64,000 nt of DNA. Source: an uncultured Flavobacteriales bacterium. GTDB taxonomy: Bacteria; Bacteroidota; Bacteroidia; Flavobacteriales_G; Salibacteraceae. The stretch lies in the NCBI GenBank assembly GCA_913062955.1, contig CAJXZP010000002.1, positions 62,001 through 126,000 on the forward strand, in the 5' to 3' direction. A program made the translations under genes and the position numbers. The notes under the pieces are model-generated. The model made no database searches, was not told where the DNA came from, and saw nothing but the letters and a program-made list of their open reading frames with translations. This document shows, one piece after another, positions 8,020 to 47,334 of this stretch. Each line of letters starts with the position of its first letter. Position 1 is the first letter of the stretch.

Positions 8020-8080
8020 TTTTTAGTTTAATGGAGGAATAAGTTTAACCTTTATTCCCGAAAGTGTATATTATGTTTAG

Positions 8081-8244
8081 CGAACCTGGGGCAGATATCC
8101 TGACTTACTCCTTAATTCTACGCCTTCCCAATTATTATCAGTGGCCTAATGCAGAATCGTACAGAGCTTACAGTTGCGGGGACAGTTCAGGACTTTAACC
8201 TGATTCCCATTTAATTCGCCAAAAACGGCAAAACCTAAAGTTCG
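8081..8244 (-). promoter_or_regulatory. Cobalamin (B12) riboswitch controlling thioesterase-nrdB-nrdA
   Basis: Read on the minus strand, the leader contains the hallmark cobalamin-aptamer blocks in order: GGGAATCAGG, GTCCTGAACTGTCCCCGCAAC, GTAAGC, GCCACTG, GGGAAGGCG, and the B12 box AGTCAGGATATCTGCC. Terminal stem P1 can form from CGAAC (near 8244) and GTTCG (near 8085). Between the aptamer and the thioesterase ATG, GGAATAA and TTATTCC (8036-8058) form a 7-bp hairpin that is not followed by a T run. Control of translation is therefore more likely than termination, although this platform is inferred. When B12 is abundant, such switches turn expression off. Confidence 0.93.
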
Positions 8245-8247
8245 AGT

Positions 8248-8255
8248 CAAAAGTA
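8248..8255 (-). promoter_or_regulatory. -7 promoter element for the riboswitch/nrd transcript
   Basis: The minus strand reads TACTTTTG, a full TAnnTTTG match, placed so that transcription would begin at the base of riboswitch stem P1. The -33 element is not clear. Confidence 0.65.
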
Positions 8256-39272: not shown

Positions 39273-39668
39273 ATGAAATATCTTATAAGTTTATTTTTAA
39301 TCACGGCTCTATTTTCGTCATGTACTAAATCAGCTGGAGTAGGCGGGAAATCCACCGTAAAGGGGATGGTCACTGCCATTTATGTGAATAAAGATAGTTT
39401 TGATACCGTAGAGATTTCGGGGCTTCCGGATACCCGAGTTTATATTGTGTATGGCGATGGAAGTACGCAGGATGATGATACGCGAACAAGTCCAGATGGG
39501 AGTTTCAAATTTGAATATTTAAACCCAGGTGACTATAAACTCTATACCTATTCAGAAAGTTTGATAATGGCTTCGGAAGTAACGGAGGTTTCTGTTCAAA
39601 TTACGGTGGATAAAAAACAAGAGGATGTGATTGTACCTACCTTAACGATTGTGAAATACGTTAAATGA
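39273..39668 (+). CDS. Small lipoprotein with carboxypeptidase-regulatory-like fold, first gene of the VTC-CotH operon
   Basis: The 131-residue product has a lipoprotein signal with Cys17 (LFSSC). The mature part has a beta-sandwich pattern: VKGMVTAIYVNKDSFDTVEISGLPDTRVYIVYG, then TSPDGSFKFEYLNPGDYKLYTYSE, resembling transthyretin-like or CarboxypepD_reg/SdrD-B domains. No enzymatic residues are evident. It is probably a surface or periplasmic lipoprotein that scaffolds or binds. Its last bases overlap the next gene (ATGA at 39665-39668), so translation is coupled to the VTC-type gene. Confidence 0.75.
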   Translation: MKYLISLFLITALFSSCTKSAGVGGKSTVKGMVTAIYVNKDSFDTVEISGLPDTRVYIVYGDGSTQDDDTRTSPDGSFKFEYLNPGDYKLYTYSESLIMASEVTEVSVQITVDKKQEDVIVPTLTIVKYVK

Positions 39669-40420
39669 TCAAAGAGGTTAAACATATTATTTCATCTCTA
39701 ACAAATATGACCTTGAAGGATTTAAATGCGAATTCATTTGATTCAAGAATTGATACCAAGTTCCTATTCCATCAAGATCTTTTAGTCGCTTTTTTGACTA
39801 ATTTACTGGATGACTTGATGGTGCTAGAGGTAGAGAAAAACCGTTTTTTTCATTACGATACATTGTATTGTGATTTAAAGGATTATGATTTCTATAGAAA
39901 CCATCATTCGGGGTTAGGAAATAGAAGTAAAGTTCGTGTACGGAAATATGGCGAATTAGGTCCGTTTTTTTTCGAGATAAAAAATAAATCGAATAAGGGA
40001 ATAATTTCCAAATTAAGAGTCCCTGTGGATAAATTTGAGGAGTATAAAACGGAAAATACTATAGCCGCTTTAAGGCAAAATATGAAATTAGATTTTGAAG
40101 TTTTAACGCAAAATACAATGGTTTCCTATAATCGAATCACCTGCGCTAATAAATCGTTGACCGAAAAATTAACCATCGATTTTGATATGGTAGCTACCTC
40201 GGAAAAGGATCGTTTTGAATATACCAATTTGATCGTAGTGGAAGTGAAACAATTGAAATTTTCGAATAGGAGTCCGTTTATTACAGCTTTGAAAGAATTG
40301 AAAGTATATCCTTCTAGTTTTTCCAAGTATTGCACATCCGTAGCCTTTTTAAATCCGGATATTAAAAAAAATAGATTTCTCCCTATAATTAATAAAGTAA
40401 ATAGAATAACCATTGCATAG
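39665..40420 (+). CDS. VTC domain polyphosphate-polymerase-like protein
   Basis: A CYTH/triphosphate-tunnel protein of 251 residues with no signal peptide. Tunnel-lining charged residues recur on alternating strands: Arg28/Asp30/Lys32 (SRIDTKF), YDTLYCDLKDYDFYRNHHSG, Lys89/Arg91/Arg93 (KVRVRKYG), Glu104/Lys106/Lys108 (FFEIKNK), Tyr155/Arg157 (SYNR), Asp172/Asp174 (TIDFD) and Glu193/Lys195 (VVEVK), ending in SFSKY. This is the VTC4-like pattern of a protein that polymerises or transfers phosphate from nucleoside triphosphates. Activity is inferred from the preserved charges. It is coupled by 4-base overlap to the lipoprotein and lies 1 base before the DUF4956 gene. Confidence 0.82.
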   Translation: MIKEVKHIISSLTNMTLKDLNANSFDSRIDTKFLFHQDLLVAFLTNLLDDLMVLEVEKNRFFHYDTLYCDLKDYDFYRNHHSGLGNRSKVRVRKYGELGPFFFEIKNKSNKGIISKLRVPVDKFEEYKTENTIAALRQNMKLDFEVLTQNTMVSYNRITCANKSLTEKLTIDFDMVATSEKDRFEYTNLIVVEVKQLKFSNRSPFITALKELKVYPSSFSKYCTSVAFLNPDIKKNRFLPIINKVNRITIA

Positions 40421-40421
40421 T

Positions 40422-41057
40422 ATGATAACAATTTTTTCCCAAATAGAAGCGGCCTCTTTTTTTGATGCCAGTTTAACACCCCTCCAGTTATTAGAGTTTG
40501 GGTTTCGGTTTGTCTTAAATTTGGTGGTATCTTATTTCATCATTCTTAAAATTTACCAACCTACACGTAAAGATCAGGAGTATGTATTTACGTATTTGAT
40601 TTTTGGTCCCATCGTGTTTTTTATGGTTAACCTTTTTTCGCAATCTACTTTAGGTGTTGGTTTTGCTTTTGGTTTATTTGCCGTTTTTTCCATATTAAGA
40701 TATCGAACCACTACTATTCCGGTGAAGGAAATGACGTATATGTTTACCATTATTTCTTTATCGGTATTGAATGCAATTTCTAGTCCGATGATTACCTTAA
40801 CCGTTTTAATAGGTACTAATTTGGTGATTTTATCGGTGGTTTATTTTACAGAAAAATCCTTTTATAAAAAAGGAATTGAAACCCAAATTATCCAATATGA
40901 AAAAATTGAAAATATTCATCCAGATAGAACCCATTTATTAGTAGCTGATTTGGAGGAACGTACCGGTAATACCATCGAGAGATTTGATGTTCTAGAATCG
41001 GATTACCTAAAGGATGCTGTTAAACTAAGAGTGTATTACCGTTCACGTTCGAAATGA
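40422..41057 (+). CDS. DUF4956 domain inner-membrane protein
   Basis: The 211-residue protein has about four hydrophobic segments in its first 140 residues (LEFGFRFVLNLVVSYFIIL, YVFTYLIFGPIVFFMVNL, LGVGFAFGLFAVFSILRYRTTTIPVKEMTYMF, LNAISSPMITLTVLIGTNLVIL). The LFAVFSILRYRTTTI segment is diagnostic of DUF4956. A soluble C-terminal domain (about 150-211) follows. DUF4956 genes recur next to VTC-domain genes in unrelated phyla, from which a joint membrane role in polyphosphate handling is inferred. The true start is ATG 40422; the frame extends only to a TTG upstream. It overlaps the DUF2490 gene by 4 bases. Confidence 0.85.
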   Translation: MITIFSQIEAASFFDASLTPLQLLEFGFRFVLNLVVSYFIILKIYQPTRKDQEYVFTYLIFGPIVFFMVNLFSQSTLGVGFAFGLFAVFSILRYRTTTIPVKEMTYMFTIISLSVLNAISSPMITLTVLIGTNLVILSVVYFTEKSFYKKGIETQIIQYEKIENIHPDRTHLLVADLEERTGNTIERFDVLESDYLKDAVKLRVYYRSRSK

Positions 41058-41695
41058 AAAGTGTAAAATATATAGGGGTTTGTTTGGCTCTTTTTTTTGC
41101 CAATTCCACTTGGGCTCAAAATCAAGACTTTGGTTTTTGGACCGCATTTAAGGTGTCCCAGAAACTAAATAAAAAGTGGTCTGCTTTTGGGGAGCTTCAA
41201 AGTAGGTTTAAAAATAATGGCTCCGATTTGGATAATGCATTTGTTCAAGGTGGGGTGAGTTATAAAATTGCCAAATGGTACGAGCTTGGAGCGGTGTATC
41301 GGTACAGCAATAATGGGGAGATGGATGCCCATCGTTTTGATGTAAACAATACATTTAAGTACAAGATTGACCAAAAAAATGCCCTTAGCTTTCGATTGAA
41401 GTTTACCAAGTCATATGTGACCCACAAAATAAAAGGGGAACGATTTAGAGTTCGATTGAAGTACCAATTTAAAGTGAATAAAAAATTTATTCCGTATGTA
41501 AAGGCGCAATATTTCTACACAAGAGTGTATGATTTTTCGAAATGGAATTTGCAACGATACTCGATTGGGAGTGAAGTTAGAATAGCGAAGAAGAATTTTA
41601 TAGATGTTTTCTTTACCTATCAATTTGAATATAACGTGTTTAATCCACTTACAGAGTATATTTTTGGACTGAAGTATAAACTGAAATACAAATAG
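41054..41695 (+). CDS. DUF2490 outer-membrane protein
   Basis: The 213-residue protein has a signal peptide (ending STWAQ) and alternating amphipathic strands rich in Tyr, Phe and Arg (FGFWTAFKVSQKLNKKWSAFGELQSRF; WYELGAVYRYSNNGE; HRFDVNNTFKYK), as in DUF2490 barrels, ending in aromatic/Lys residues (GLKYKLKYK). Its role in other operons is unknown; here it may provide an outer-membrane partner for the CotH protein. It is coupled to its neighbours: ATGA overlap upstream, and the CotH gene starts directly after its stop codon (TAGATG). Confidence 0.82.
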   Translation: MKSVKYIGVCLALFFANSTWAQNQDFGFWTAFKVSQKLNKKWSAFGELQSRFKNNGSDLDNAFVQGGVSYKIAKWYELGAVYRYSNNGEMDAHRFDVNNTFKYKIDQKNALSFRLKFTKSYVTHKIKGERFRVRLKYQFKVNKKFIPYVKAQYFYTRVYDFSKWNLQRYSIGSEVRIAKKNFIDVFFTYQFEYNVFNPLTEYIFGLKYKLKYK

Positions 41696-44600
41696 ATGAA
41701 ACAAAATTTACTATTTCTAATGGGTTTGCTTGTTAATCTAAATGTCCTTTTCGCACAAGATTTAGTCATTAACGAGGTGATGCCGAGTAATGGAATGACG
41801 AGTATTGATTTTTTTAAAGATGCTCCTGATTGGATTGAAGTTTATAATAATACCAATAGTCCGATTCAATTATCCGATTATTATTTATCGGATAATCAGT
41901 CTTTAAAGTTAAAATGGCAATTCCCTACCAAAAATCTACAACCTAATAATTTTATTTTAATTTATTGTAGTGGACGGGATACTACGATTTCCTTTGAGTA
42001 CCACTCCAATTTCAAGTTATCTAATAGCTTAGACACTTTGGGTATTTATTTTAAAAATGGCTCCACCGTTCATGAGTTTGTTTACGAATCTATGCCCATC
42101 GATATTTCTTTCGGACTGCAACCAGATGGGAGTAATACCCGTGTTTTCTTTAGTGCTCCGACCCCAAAGGCAACAAATAATAATTCAATGGGCTATACTT
42201 GTGTTTTAAGTCCTCCCACGGTTTCTGCCCAATCGGGTTTTTATGCGAGTCCGCTTGCGTTAAGTATTTCTCATCCCGTTTCAGGGGTGCAATTAAATTA
42301 TACGGAGAATGGAGAAGAACCCAATAATTCGGATCCTACCTATACTGGAAATTTGGATTTGAGTACCAGTTACCAAGCCAACCGATTGAGTCTAATACCA
42401 ACTAACCCAGGATTAAATGCTCCACAAGCGGCATATTCCGTGAGTCGTATGAATAATAGAGGGTATTTGCCTCCGGCTGTGGATGTTCAGAATATTAATG
42501 TATTTATGATTCGAGCGTTTAAATCGGGCTGTATTCCTAGCGAATCGGTGGTGAAAACATATGTGTTAGATGATGGTAATATTCAATTTCCGAATATGCC
42601 AATTTTGGCCCTTCAAACCGATAGTTTCGGTTTTTTTTCAAATGATACGGGCATTTATGTATTTGGGAATAGCAATGTAGGTAACTATACCAAGGGCGGT
42701 TATAAATGGGAAAGGGAAGGTACTTTGGTCTACTTTGATGAAAATCAGAATAAGTTGATTGACCAAAAACTGGGCGTGGAATTACATGGGAATGGCTCTC
42801 GACAATCTACCCATAAAAATCTGAGAGTCACTCCGAAATCACGCTTAGGAAAGAGCCGTATAGAAGCTCCGTTATTTGAGGAAGTAAATTATGAGAGGTT
42901 TGATCACCTTATTTTAAGGTCGCCCGGACACCGTCCTGATTGTATGCCTCGAGATGAATTGGCAACCACTATTGTGGCCCATTTGGGTTTTGATGTTCCC
43001 TACTATTCTACCTCCGCCATGTATTTGAACGGTGAGTTTTGGGGAATCAATGTTTTGAAAGAACGGTTTGATGATGAATACATAGCCATCAAATACGATA
43101 TGAAGGATAAGGAGATCGTTATTCTGGAAGAAGAAGGAATCCTGCAATATGGTGAATCAACGGATACGGCTCATTATAATAATATGATGGATTTTGTGAC
43201 CCAAAATAGTTTAGATAATCCAGCCAATATGGATTACCTAAATACTCAAATGGATGTAGAAAATTATTTGGACTATATGATCTCAGAGATATTTATTGGG
43301 AATGGGGATTGGCCGACTAATAATTTACGGTTTTGGCGTAAACGAGTGTCATATGATGATTATGCTAGTCCAGGACATGACGGCCGTTGGCGTTGGATGT
43401 TTTTTGATATCGATGGGGGGTTTGGAGGTACTTGTAGTGATGTGTATTTTACTATGAATAATTTGAACCGCGCTTTAAGGGATACCGGTGGATATGTTCC
43501 TTTCACCCGTTTATTTCGAGATTTAATCAGTTATCAATCATTTAGGGACATGTATATTAATCGTACATGTGATCGCTTAAATACAAATTTTTTAAATTCG
43601 GTAACTCGATCTAAATTAGATGTTATTGTGAATGACCTTGATCCTATTATGATGGACCATGTGAACCGATTTGGATACCCGTCCACCAGTGTTACCCTAG
43701 CTGATAGAATGGTGGAAATCCCAAGTTTGGATAAATGGAATTATTTGGTGTCAGGACTAGAGAAGTTTATGTCCAGAAGGAGCTTTTATATTAGACGTCA
43801 AATGAAAGAACAATGGACGTTGGCCGATACATTTGCTATAACGGTAAATGTAAATGATGTTAACATGGGGTTTGTGCAATTAAACTCCCTAAAACTAACC
43901 TCCCAATTGGAAGGTGTTTCTGCTCCTGTTTATCCCTGGACCGGTAAGTATTTTGAAGGGATTAATATTCCTTTAATTGCACATCCATATCCGGGTTATC
44001 GCTTTAAAGACTGGATGGGGCTTTCTATCACTAAGGCAGATACATCGGTTAATATTTCATCAGATACTATTTTTACTGCGGTCTTTGAAATCGATCCGGA
44101 TTATTCGATTCCTATGCCCATCGTTATTAACGAATTACAGGCCTCCAATTCTTCAACGGTATTTGATGAGTATTTTGAGTTTGACGATTGGATAGAATTA
44201 TATAATCCTAACACTACGGATATTGATATTACCGGTTATTATTTAACGGATAATAGAAATAAATTAAAAAAATATTGGGTGGGTCCTAATAAAACAATCA
44301 TCCCAGCAAAAGAATGGATGGTTTTTTGGGCCGATGATCAATCTGGGCAAGGGCAAAACCATACCAACTTTAAATTAAGTAAGAGTGGCGAATTTATTGC
44401 ACTGGTTGCTCCGGATGGAATAACCGTAGTAGATTCCATTTCCTTTGGACCTCAACTAACAGATTACTCTTATGGTCGTCAGGGAGATGGAATGGCGAAT
44501 TGGGTGGAATTCGAAATCCCTACACCGTTTTATAGCAATCTATCCAGCGATGTGGAGGAATTTGTAAGTCATGAAGCATTAAAAGTGTATCCTAACCCCT

Positions 44601-44779
44601 CAAATGGGGATTACGTCTATTTTAATCAACATATAAGCGGAGATTTATATTCTATTTCTGGCGTATTGGTACAATCCTTTCAACGGACTTCTAGCTTAGC
44701 TATTTCTAATTTAAAAATTGGAATTTATATTATTAGGAATTCAAATAATGGGGAATCCGTAAAGTTGGTTATCCAGTAA
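41696..44779 (+). CDS. CotH kinase family protein with two lamin-tail domains and T9SS sorting tail
   Basis: A 1027-residue secreted protein. After the signal peptide (residues 1-20, ending LFAQ) comes a lamin-tail domain (about 22-160, VINEVMPSNG..DWIEVYN). Next is a chitobiase-C-like segment (about 172-290) and a CotH kinase core (about 360-700) with VELHGNGSRQS, RSPGHRPD, FWGINVLKERFDDEYI and the metal-binding RWRWMFFDIDGGFGG near 564. A second lamin-tail domain (about 806-940) and a Por-type sorting tail (about 955-1027, VYPNPSNGD...) follow. CotH proteins are atypical Ser/Thr kinases. This one should be exported by T9SS and attached to the surface. It ends zero bases from menA. Confidence 0.9.
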   Translation: MKQNLLFLMGLLVNLNVLFAQDLVINEVMPSNGMTSIDFFKDAPDWIEVYNNTNSPIQLSDYYLSDNQSLKLKWQFPTKNLQPNNFILIYCSGRDTTISFEYHSNFKLSNSLDTLGIYFKNGSTVHEFVYESMPIDISFGLQPDGSNTRVFFSAPTPKATNNNSMGYTCVLSPPTVSAQSGFYASPLALSISHPVSGVQLNYTENGEEPNNSDPTYTGNLDLSTSYQANRLSLIPTNPGLNAPQAAYSVSRMNNRGYLPPAVDVQNINVFMIRAFKSGCIPSESVVKTYVLDDGNIQFPNMPILALQTDSFGFFSNDTGIYVFGNSNVGNYTKGGYKWEREGTLVYFDENQNKLIDQKLGVELHGNGSRQSTHKNLRVTPKSRLGKSRIEAPLFEEVNYERFDHLILRSPGHRPDCMPRDELATTIVAHLGFDVPYYSTSAMYLNGEFWGINVLKERFDDEYIAIKYDMKDKEIVILEEEGILQYGESTDTAHYNNMMDFVTQNSLDNPANMDYLNTQMDVENYLDYMISEIFIGNGDWPTNNLRFWRKRVSYDDYASPGHDGRWRWMFFDIDGGFGGTCSDVYFTMNNLNRALRDTGGYVPFTRLFRDLISYQSFRDMYINRTCDRLNTNFLNSVTRSKLDVIVNDLDPIMMDHVNRFGYPSTSVTLADRMVEIPSLDKWNYLVSGLEKFMSRRSFYIRRQMKEQWTLADTFAITVNVNDVNMGFVQLNSLKLTSQLEGVSAPVYPWTGKYFEGINIPLIAHPYPGYRFKDWMGLSITKADTSVNISSDTIFTAVFEIDPDYSIPMPIVINELQASNSSTVFDEYFEFDDWIELYNPNTTDIDITGYYLTDNRNKLKKYWVGPNKTIIPAKEWMVFWADDQSGQGQNHTNFKLSKSGEFIALVAPDGITVVDSISFGPQLTDYSYGRQGDGMANWVEFEIPTPFYSNLSSDVEEFVSHEALKVYPNPSNGDYVYFNQHISGDLYSISGVLVQSFQRTSSLAISNLKIGIYIIRNSNNGESVKLVIQ

Positions 44780-45759: not shown

Positions 45760-47334
45760 ATGAAAAATGTACACCTAGTTTTCTGTTCTATTTTGTTCTT
45801 GTTGTTTAGTGGTAAAGTTTTGTCTCAAATTCTTCCCAATGGCGTGTCTGTTAAAAATGGGCCCGAAATTCAAGGGCAAGATATTCATGAAATATCTCAG
45901 TTACTGAAATATACCAAATCCGGGTACATCACCTGTACCAGAACGGGTTTTGTGATTCAATTTGTCCATGTGTCCAATAAATTGGAGGTATTGAAGTCCG
46001 TGAATATGGATGTTAGAGATTTTAATAAAGAGGCGCATTTAATTAATGTGGTTTTGGTAAATTCTGATATTTTGGTGTTCACTAAGGTATCGGATAAAGA
46101 AAATTTCGAGAGCCAAATTTATTTTCAAAAATTGAATGAGTCGGATTACTCTTTAAGTCAAGCCAAAAGTTTAATTTCTAAAACCACTACCGAAGACGAA
46201 GGTTTTGTGTCGTGTTCGATTTCCGCTTCAGACGATACCAAGAAAGTAGTTATTACCATGAAAGTGGATGTGGAAGTAGATGCGAATGAAAAAAAAGTGG
46301 AACTTTTGGATGTGTACTTACTGAATGAAGATTTGGAAATTACATGGCAAAAAGATAGTATAATGATGTCGACCGATGAGCTAAATGTATCCACAGGAAA
46401 GGTAGTGGTAACGAATTCCGGATTGATATGTCTAAATGCTACTTCATCTGGATTTGATTCAGATGACAGCGAAGTAACCATAGAAATAAATGGGTTAGAG
46501 GGCTTATTAAACTTACTGAATAACTTCCAAAGGCATGTGGTTCTAATTCAAAAAGATATGGAACCGATGTTATATCAATTTAAGTTGGATGAATATGATA
46601 TCAGTGCCCTGAAATTTGTATTGGATGCAAATGATAATGTGAGAGTAGTAGGGGTCTATAAAGCAATTAAGGGAGAAGAGCGTGGGTTTTATTATGCCTT
46701 AATAAACGCGAGTACGGGGGAGTTTGAGTTTGAAAACCTTTCCGTTTTTGGGGATATGAAAGGGGTAATAACTTCCAATAGCCATTATGAAGACCCCCAA
46801 GTGGCGGAAGCGCTTCGGCTGACCCGTAATATACGTCCGCGTTTTACTATTGATTATTTATTGCCTGATAATGACGGGTTAACTTTGGTAGGAGAATCTT
46901 ATTTTTCAAATTATGGATATGGCACATATTATCGTTATGGAATTGCTGTCGTTAGATTTAATAAACAAGGTGAAATTGAATGGCAACAAGGGGTACCAAA
47001 AATCCAATATGGCGAGTCAAAGAATGATTCCTATGCGGGATATGGAATGATAAAATCAGGAAAGAAACTGTCTTTTGTATTTAATTTTTTGCCATTGGAT
47101 AAATCTAATGGAATGGTGGAAGGGAAGTCATGGTCCACCAAAAAAGCATCCGCCATTTATTTGGCCCAAGTAGATAGGGATGGAGAGCTGCGCATCGACT
47201 TTGTGGTTCCAGGTGGTAAGAAGCCCTTTTGGAAACCAAAGAATATGGTTCTTCCCAACAATAAGGAAGGGGTGATTTTAGGAGTAGGAAAAAATAAAAT
47301 TGAATTTTTGAAAATTGAAATTCAAGAAGACTAA
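45760..47334 (+). CDS. Unassigned secreted protein
   Basis: I do not recognise the family. The 524-residue protein has a clear signal peptide (about 1-23, LFLLFSGKVLSQ). The body is beta-rich with charged loops, with repeating short strands around VVITMKVDVEVDANEKKVELLDVYLLN and LTLVGESYFSNYGYGTYYRYGIAVV that could form a beta-propeller-like fold. It ends FLKIEIQED without a T9SS tail, and no catalytic motif or lipobox is visible. It is probably periplasmic or outer-surface. It stands between divergent menA and convergent relA/spoT, with a 1-base gap to the latter's stop. Confidence 0.7.
   Translation: MKNVHLVFCSILFLLFSGKVLSQILPNGVSVKNGPEIQGQDIHEISQLLKYTKSGYITCTRTGFVIQFVHVSNKLEVLKSVNMDVRDFNKEAHLINVVLVNSDILVFTKVSDKENFESQIYFQKLNESDYSLSQAKSLISKTTTEDEGFVSCSISASDDTKKVVITMKVDVEVDANEKKVELLDVYLLNEDLEITWQKDSIMMSTDELNVSTGKVVVTNSGLICLNATSSGFDSDDSEVTIEINGLEGLLNLLNNFQRHVVLIQKDMEPMLYQFKLDEYDISALKFVLDANDNVRVVGVYKAIKGEERGFYYALINASTGEFEFENLSVFGDMKGVITSNSHYEDPQVAEALRLTRNIRPRFTIDYLLPDNDGLTLVGESYFSNYGYGTYYRYGIAVVRFNKQGEIEWQQGVPKIQYGESKNDSYAGYGMIKSGKKLSFVFNFLPLDKSNGMVEGKSWSTKKASAIYLAQVDRDGELRIDFVVPGGKKPFWKPKNMVLPNNKEGVILGVGKNKIEFLKIEIQED

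Follow-up and report, generated by a model that had tools for sequence, protein, structure and literature searches.

Gene content of the locus

The window analysed here is a stretch of 64,000 nucleotides from an uncultured Flavobacteriales bacterium. Between positions 39273 and 44779 of its forward strand lie five genes that overlap or nearly touch, forming one tight operon (taken from the open reading frame list, with families assigned by Pfam and NCBIfam):

39273..39668, + strand: small lipoprotein with a prealbumin/CarboxypepD_reg-like fold (Pfam fn3_3, 1.9e-06)
39665..40420, + strand: VTC-type triphosphate-tunnel enzyme of 251 aa, a predicted cytoplasmic polyphosphate polymerase (Pfam VTC, 5.4e-24)
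40422..41057, + strand: DUF4956 membrane protein, a candidate translocator (Pfam, 2.5e-45)
41054..41695, + strand: DUF2490 outer-membrane beta-barrel, a putative porin (Pfam, 1.9e-17)
41696..44779, + strand: CotH kinase-like protein with two LTD domains and a T9SS C-terminal sorting domain (Pfam CotH, 1.1e-37)

The first and second genes overlap by 4 bases, as do the third and fourth; 1 base separates the second from the third, and the fifth follows the fourth with no base between. A preliminary description of this DNA had reported ATGA overlaps or gaps of 0-1 base and had named the same products (lipoprotein, VTC, DUF4956, DUF2490, and CotH with two lamin-tail domains and a T9SS tail); the open reading frame coordinates confirm the former and Pfam and NCBIfam the latter. 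The 1-base gap between VTC and DUF4956 holds because the DUF4956 start is the ATG at 40422, 1 base past the VTC stop (the open reading frame list starts at the TTG at 40413). Flanking genes encode an M16 peptidase, a DEAD helicase running divergently and a UbiA prenyltransferase that converges on the operon and abuts the CotH stop (Pfam). A reading of the operon as a defence system was rejected, since PADLOC gave no credible match. Elsewhere in the window are a cobalamin riboswitch (8073-8253, minus strand, 111.5 bits) and, at 45760-47334 (plus strand), a gene whose 524-aa product begins like a signal peptide and fits no Pfam family credibly.

The VTC protein and its membrane partner

The VTC protein is made up of the VTC domain alone: its 251 aa hold no transmembrane segment and, unlike Vtc2-4, which carry one in the same chain, no SPX domain (Pfam). 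Its structure model (pLDDT 93.9) best matches yeast Vtc4 (3g3r: Z 18.1, rmsd 2.9, 213 residues, 21% identity; Foldseek E 6e-12), with residue-by-residue correspondence to Vtc4 seen over part of the chain only. Vtc2 and Vtc4 structures fill the top nine rows (Z 14.6-18.1, more than 200 aligned residues); triphosphatases and cyclases with the tunnel fold also match, at Z 8-13.5, the upper figure being the highest for any non-VTC tunnel enzyme. The charged tunnel residues, said earlier to be kept, are indeed so: R28, K32, R87, K89, R91, R93, K106, K116, R118, R157, K/R168, K195 and K221 are 96-100% conserved among 139 VTC sequences, as are the acidic metal-site positions E104 and E193. Fold and residues together suggest a polyphosphate polymerase with ATP as substrate; to our knowledge, no activity has been described for any bacterial VTC of this type. 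Two apparent fusions were rejected: a 778-aa VTC open reading frame, taken as a chance upstream extension, and a VTC-DUF4956 fusion in locus L064, where the open reading frame crosses a masked N stretch.

DUF4956 had been described as a four-helix protein. Its model (pLDDT 80) has instead five membrane helices and a C-terminal alpha/beta domain that is ACT/ferredoxin-like. Two arginines at the end of helix 3, R93 and R95, are 98-100% conserved (154 sequences); by the positive-inside rule this end would face the cytoplasm, and the arginines may belong to a regulatory site instead of lining a path. Foldseek gave no significant match for the model in the PDB, and the weak fold rows (an ALMT channel region at Z 6.7; ferredoxin-like domains) were not trusted. 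Comparison with MgtC, the family proposed for the Streptococcus intermedius homologue, gave an hhalign probability of 1% (E 0.056) using an MgtC set of only four sequences. No Vtc1-like membrane domain was found by Pfam in any of the five operon proteins. A 491-aa DUF4956 open reading frame was, again, taken as a chance upstream extension rather than a fusion. Loci of Marinifilum, Labilibaculum and Ancylomarina (L070, L073, L089, L104) have DUF4956 and lack VTC; its neighbours in L070 are a calcineurin-like phosphoesterase and an S46 peptidase, along with an unknown gene of 360 aa.

Recurrence of the gene set

Across 60 relatives, VTC and DUF4956 occur together in 25, VTC alone in 1 and DUF4956 alone in 4 (p 1.3e-11); VTC and CotH are both present in 25 (p 3e-8); and 11 of 28 VTC loci have a CotH no more than 6 kb away, against 0.44 expected over 26 genomes (p 5e-14), all co-occurrence p-values treating genomes as independent. 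For that reason the counts of changes on trees, given below, outweigh them. An even phylum sample (247 genomes, 90% completeness) contained 43 genomes with VTC, from which 45 loci were read: all 45 have DUF4956, and 17, spread over about 12 families, have CotH no farther than 6 kb away. The grouping of VTC, DUF4956 and CotH is far above chance in this neighbourhood survey, which upholds the earlier claim that the three recur together in distant bacteria.

The order in 80 named DUF4956 loci is lipoprotein, VTC, DUF4956, DUF2490, with or without CotH, some genes being missing at some loci. The first four genes keep this order in Bacteroidota, a Marinimicrobia bin (L065) and a Kapaibacteria bin (L080); an Anaerolineae (Chloroflexota) bin (L107) has VTC-DUF4956-CotH and no DUF2490. 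Four loci (L113, L117, L220, L228) show a divergent third arrangement, in which CotH or other genes separate or adjoin DUF4956 and VTC, CotH coming partly from a distant subfamily. One bin labelled Euryarchaeota (L102) has the gene layout of the Flavobacteriales loci and is probably misnamed.

Envelope partners

The lipobox cysteine of the lipoprotein (C17) and its GxGG motif are invariant in 20 homologues, which lie mostly directly upstream of VTC. The DUF2490 protein (Pfam, 64 bits; cut-off 29.8) is of a family listed as putative porins (TC 1.B.81; PMC4827864). It sits beside VTC-DUF4956 at 54 of the 80 named loci, 14 of the 45 sampled loci and 16 of the 28 loci in relatives (there within 1.5 kb of VTC, where 0.08 would be expected). 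Counting a second kind of partner, an HlyD-type periplasmic adaptor, 41 of the 45 sampled loci have an envelope partner beside VTC-DUF4956: DUF2490 in 14 and the HlyD-type protein in 27. The adaptor was recognised with Pfam HlyD_3 (39.5 bits in L202, cut-off 22.2), and its two groups were matched by profile comparison (probability 98.8%). The two partners are found together at none of the 45 sampled loci and at 2 of the 80 named ones. There are two ancient VTC-DUF4956 types, one with DUF2490 and one with the HlyD-type adaptor. The split is one change on the VTC+DUF4956 tree and so counts once; the exclusivity of the partners (Fisher 1.8e-8) was rejected as independent evidence for the same reason. 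Partners of these kinds, an adaptor or a putative porin, point to export. DUF2490 is missing from the Chloroflexota and Gram-positive versions, as expected because such cells are without the usual outer membrane. The literature search found no paper treating DUF2490 with CotH.

CotH and the outer half of the operon

The CotH protein carries LTD twice and a Por_Secre_tail (Pfam), which scores 27.6 bits with PF18962, just above the cut-off of 27, and 27.4 bits with TIGR04183 (cut-off 23). The genome has two GldN genes and at least 150 PF18962 matches; the earlier proposal that the T9SS places CotH outside agrees with this presence of both sorting tail and T9SS genes. A profile of VTC-linked CotHs matches Bacillus cereus CotH (5jd9) at 2.1e-43. 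Among 32 VTC-linked CotHs, G365, G450 and D571 are invariant, E456 is near-invariant and D538 is conserved in more than 90%, so the key CotH residues, a point on which the preliminary description had staked its reading, are retained. D571 and D538 we take to be the catalytic pair, from the alignment to 5jd9 and from the literature. A T9SS tail is found on 16 of the 32; the others have about 450 residues and a lipoprotein-like start (judged by eye), and in other species CotH probably reaches the surface as a lipoprotein. The T9SS fusion and the DUF2490 partner, which the preliminary description singled out as special, are the common Bacteroidota layout, as the counts of 54 of 80 loci and 16 of 32 CotHs indicate. 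A further CotH gene with its own T9SS tail lies on the same contig outside the window (G000:C2:7423-8361).

CotH presence changes 13 times on the VTC+DUF4956 tree, across both the DUF2490 and HlyD types, and the CotH tree has at least 11 forced changes, with several CotH subfamilies recruited. Gain or loss of CotH at the core has therefore been frequent and has involved different CotH subfamilies. In a sister genome of the same genus (G002), the same locus reads lipoprotein-DUF2490-CotH within one contig, with VTC and DUF4956 gone, an absence whose weight is limited by the fragmented assembly. The outer half (lipoprotein-DUF2490-CotH) can therefore persist alone. DUF2490-CotH pairs without VTC occur in the window's own genome (G000) and in G001, G002, G003, G012, G019 and G059. 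The second CotH-DUF2490 locus of the window's genome (L145, contig 56, 2856-5966) has a gene with a PycTM (Pycsar effector) domain between CotH and DUF2490; G001 has a gene of similar length at that place, whereas G002 has none.

Polyphosphate metabolism of the genus

PPK1 is missing from all three genomes of the genus (G000, G001, G002) and present in 44 of the 60 genomes searched; with one of the three assembled into a single contig, the absence is likely real. VTC is therefore the best candidate for the polyphosphate maker in G000 and G001. Each of the three genomes has two tandem PPK2 genes, and PPK2 enzymes may also make polyphosphate in G000 and G001. A replacement of PPK1 by VTC across the relatives was rejected, the data showing a trend only (p 0.085).

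Comparison with known systems

In yeast, VTC couples polyphosphate synthesis to translocation via a channel of basic residues (PMC9911596). The operon shares with the yeast complex (Vtc1/Vtc3/Vtc4) a tunnel polymerase fold with its basic residues and a membrane partner with conserved basic residues. It differs in having neither SPX nor a detected Vtc1-type membrane domain, the membrane part being DUF4956, and in adding bacterial outer-envelope partners.

In Gram-positive bacteria, Pel loci include cotH together with genes for a polyphosphate polymerase and DUF4956 (PMC7112168), and the same three families are found in SIR_1592-1594 of S. intermedius (PMC12345266). In that species deletion of the DUF4956-type gene raises Pel and deletion of CotH lowers it, aggregation being altered in both; the VTC-type mutant retains aggregation, with no change described, and the DUF4956 homologue has an ACT-like domain (PMC12345266). 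Like this accessory group, the operon has CotH, VTC and DUF4956 side by side. Unlike it, the operon belongs to a diderm host, adds DUF2490, the lipoprotein and the T9SS tail, and is flanked by the M16 peptidase, DEAD helicase and UbiA genes rather than pel genes. PelG was found neither in the window's genome nor, above cut-off, in the 60 relatives. The S. intermedius authors state that the three genes were not found together outside Pel loci (PMC12345266); the trio does occur outside them, in many genomes.

The operon's CotH shares its CotH domain and conserved acidic residues with the Bacillus CotH spore-coat kinase (5jd9), but it is a surface protein with LTD domains and a T9SS tail and has no spore context. 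In Bacteroides thetaiotaomicron, BT3498-3499 is a DUF4956-DUF2490 pair listed among iron-responsive genes with no function given (PMC10434189): DUF4956 adjoins DUF2490 there too, but CotH is absent from that entry. The component families are known; for the diderm CotH-VTC-DUF4956 combination, no description was found in the literature searched.

A possible mechanism and its alternatives

The gene set, its conservation, the folds and the recurrence are established; the product, the transport and the substrate we infer. Our preferred reading, plausible though short of probable, is an envelope-spanning unit for polyphosphate synthesis and export with a surface CotH enzyme, put together from sequence, structure models and analogy. 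VTC would use ATP to build polyphosphate on the cytoplasmic side of the inner membrane, as fold and residues suggest. DUF4956, an obligate membrane partner judging by the universal pairing and the invariant arginines, would move the chain across that membrane as the counterpart of the membrane helices of yeast Vtc1/Vtc3/Vtc4. By association, DUF2490 and the lipoprotein, or the HlyD-like adaptor in the other type, would carry or receive the chain beyond the inner membrane. CotH, sent to the surface by the T9SS, would phosphorylate surface or matrix proteins there. Besides fold and gene neighbourhoods, the absence of PPK1 from the genus speaks for this reading, as do the altered surface polymer and aggregation of the S. 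intermedius DUF4956 and CotH mutants (PMC12345266). Counted against synthesis and export are the lack of SPX and transmembrane segments in VTC, a DUF4956 with no clear fold match, the G002 locus and the S. intermedius VTC mutant. The inside-to-surface layout of the preliminary description is still the best reading, while its label of a phosphorylation system is unproven.

Other explanations draw on the same observations. VTC-DUF4956 could be a cytoplasmic or inner-membrane sensor-regulator that detects nucleotide or phosphate by way of the ACT-like domain, governs a surface polymer or matrix phosphorylated by CotH and exports no polymer. Such a domain is seen in the DUF4956 model and in the S. 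intermedius homologue, and the rise of Pel on DUF4956 deletion and its fall on CotH deletion (PMC12345266) fit this idea. It is nevertheless rather unlikely, given that the VTC tunnel residues are a catalyst's, that the fold is nearest the Vtc4 polymerase, and that sensing has no need of recurrent envelope partners. The solitary outer module of G002 and the DUF2490-CotH pairs without VTC in seven genomes (G000 to G059) would suit two loosely linked modules, VTC-DUF4956 for phosphate storage and lipoprotein-DUF2490-CotH for surface assembly. We give this little credence, as CotH joins both VTC types repeatedly and VTC-DUF4956 sits inside the outer module, the lipoprotein normally preceding VTC. 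More doubtful still is a reading in which VTC acts as a triphosphatase or another non-polymerase tunnel enzyme and the operon deals with some other phosphorylated compound: tunnel-fold triphosphatases and cyclases do match the model (Z 8-13.5), but Vtc2 and Vtc4 come ahead of them in the first nine rows (Z 14.6-18.1). VTC itself holds no membrane parts, has DUF4956 as its constant companion and mostly has an envelope partner besides; coupled synthesis and export, with CotH acting at the surface, is the simplest reading. We are aware of no supply of ATP for a kinase at the cell surface, which also counts against the main reading. Polyphosphate exported by VTC-DUF4956 might conceivably be the phosphate donor for surface CotH, giving ATP-independent extracellular protein phosphorylation, a suggestion we regard as distinctly improbable.

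Significance

The gene set would represent a bacterial equivalent of yeast VTC, widespread and conserved, composed of a tunnel polymerase, an obligate membrane partner and envelope partners. Its recurrence bears on the published claim that CotH, polyphosphate polymerase and DUF4956 are not found together outside Pel loci (PMC12345266). Some organisms with VTC-DUF4956 are without PPK1, and the pair bears on how polyphosphate is made in PPK1-less bacteria. More broadly, the operon bears on whether bacteria export polyphosphate by coupled synthesis and translocation, and on the phosphate source of a secreted kinase.
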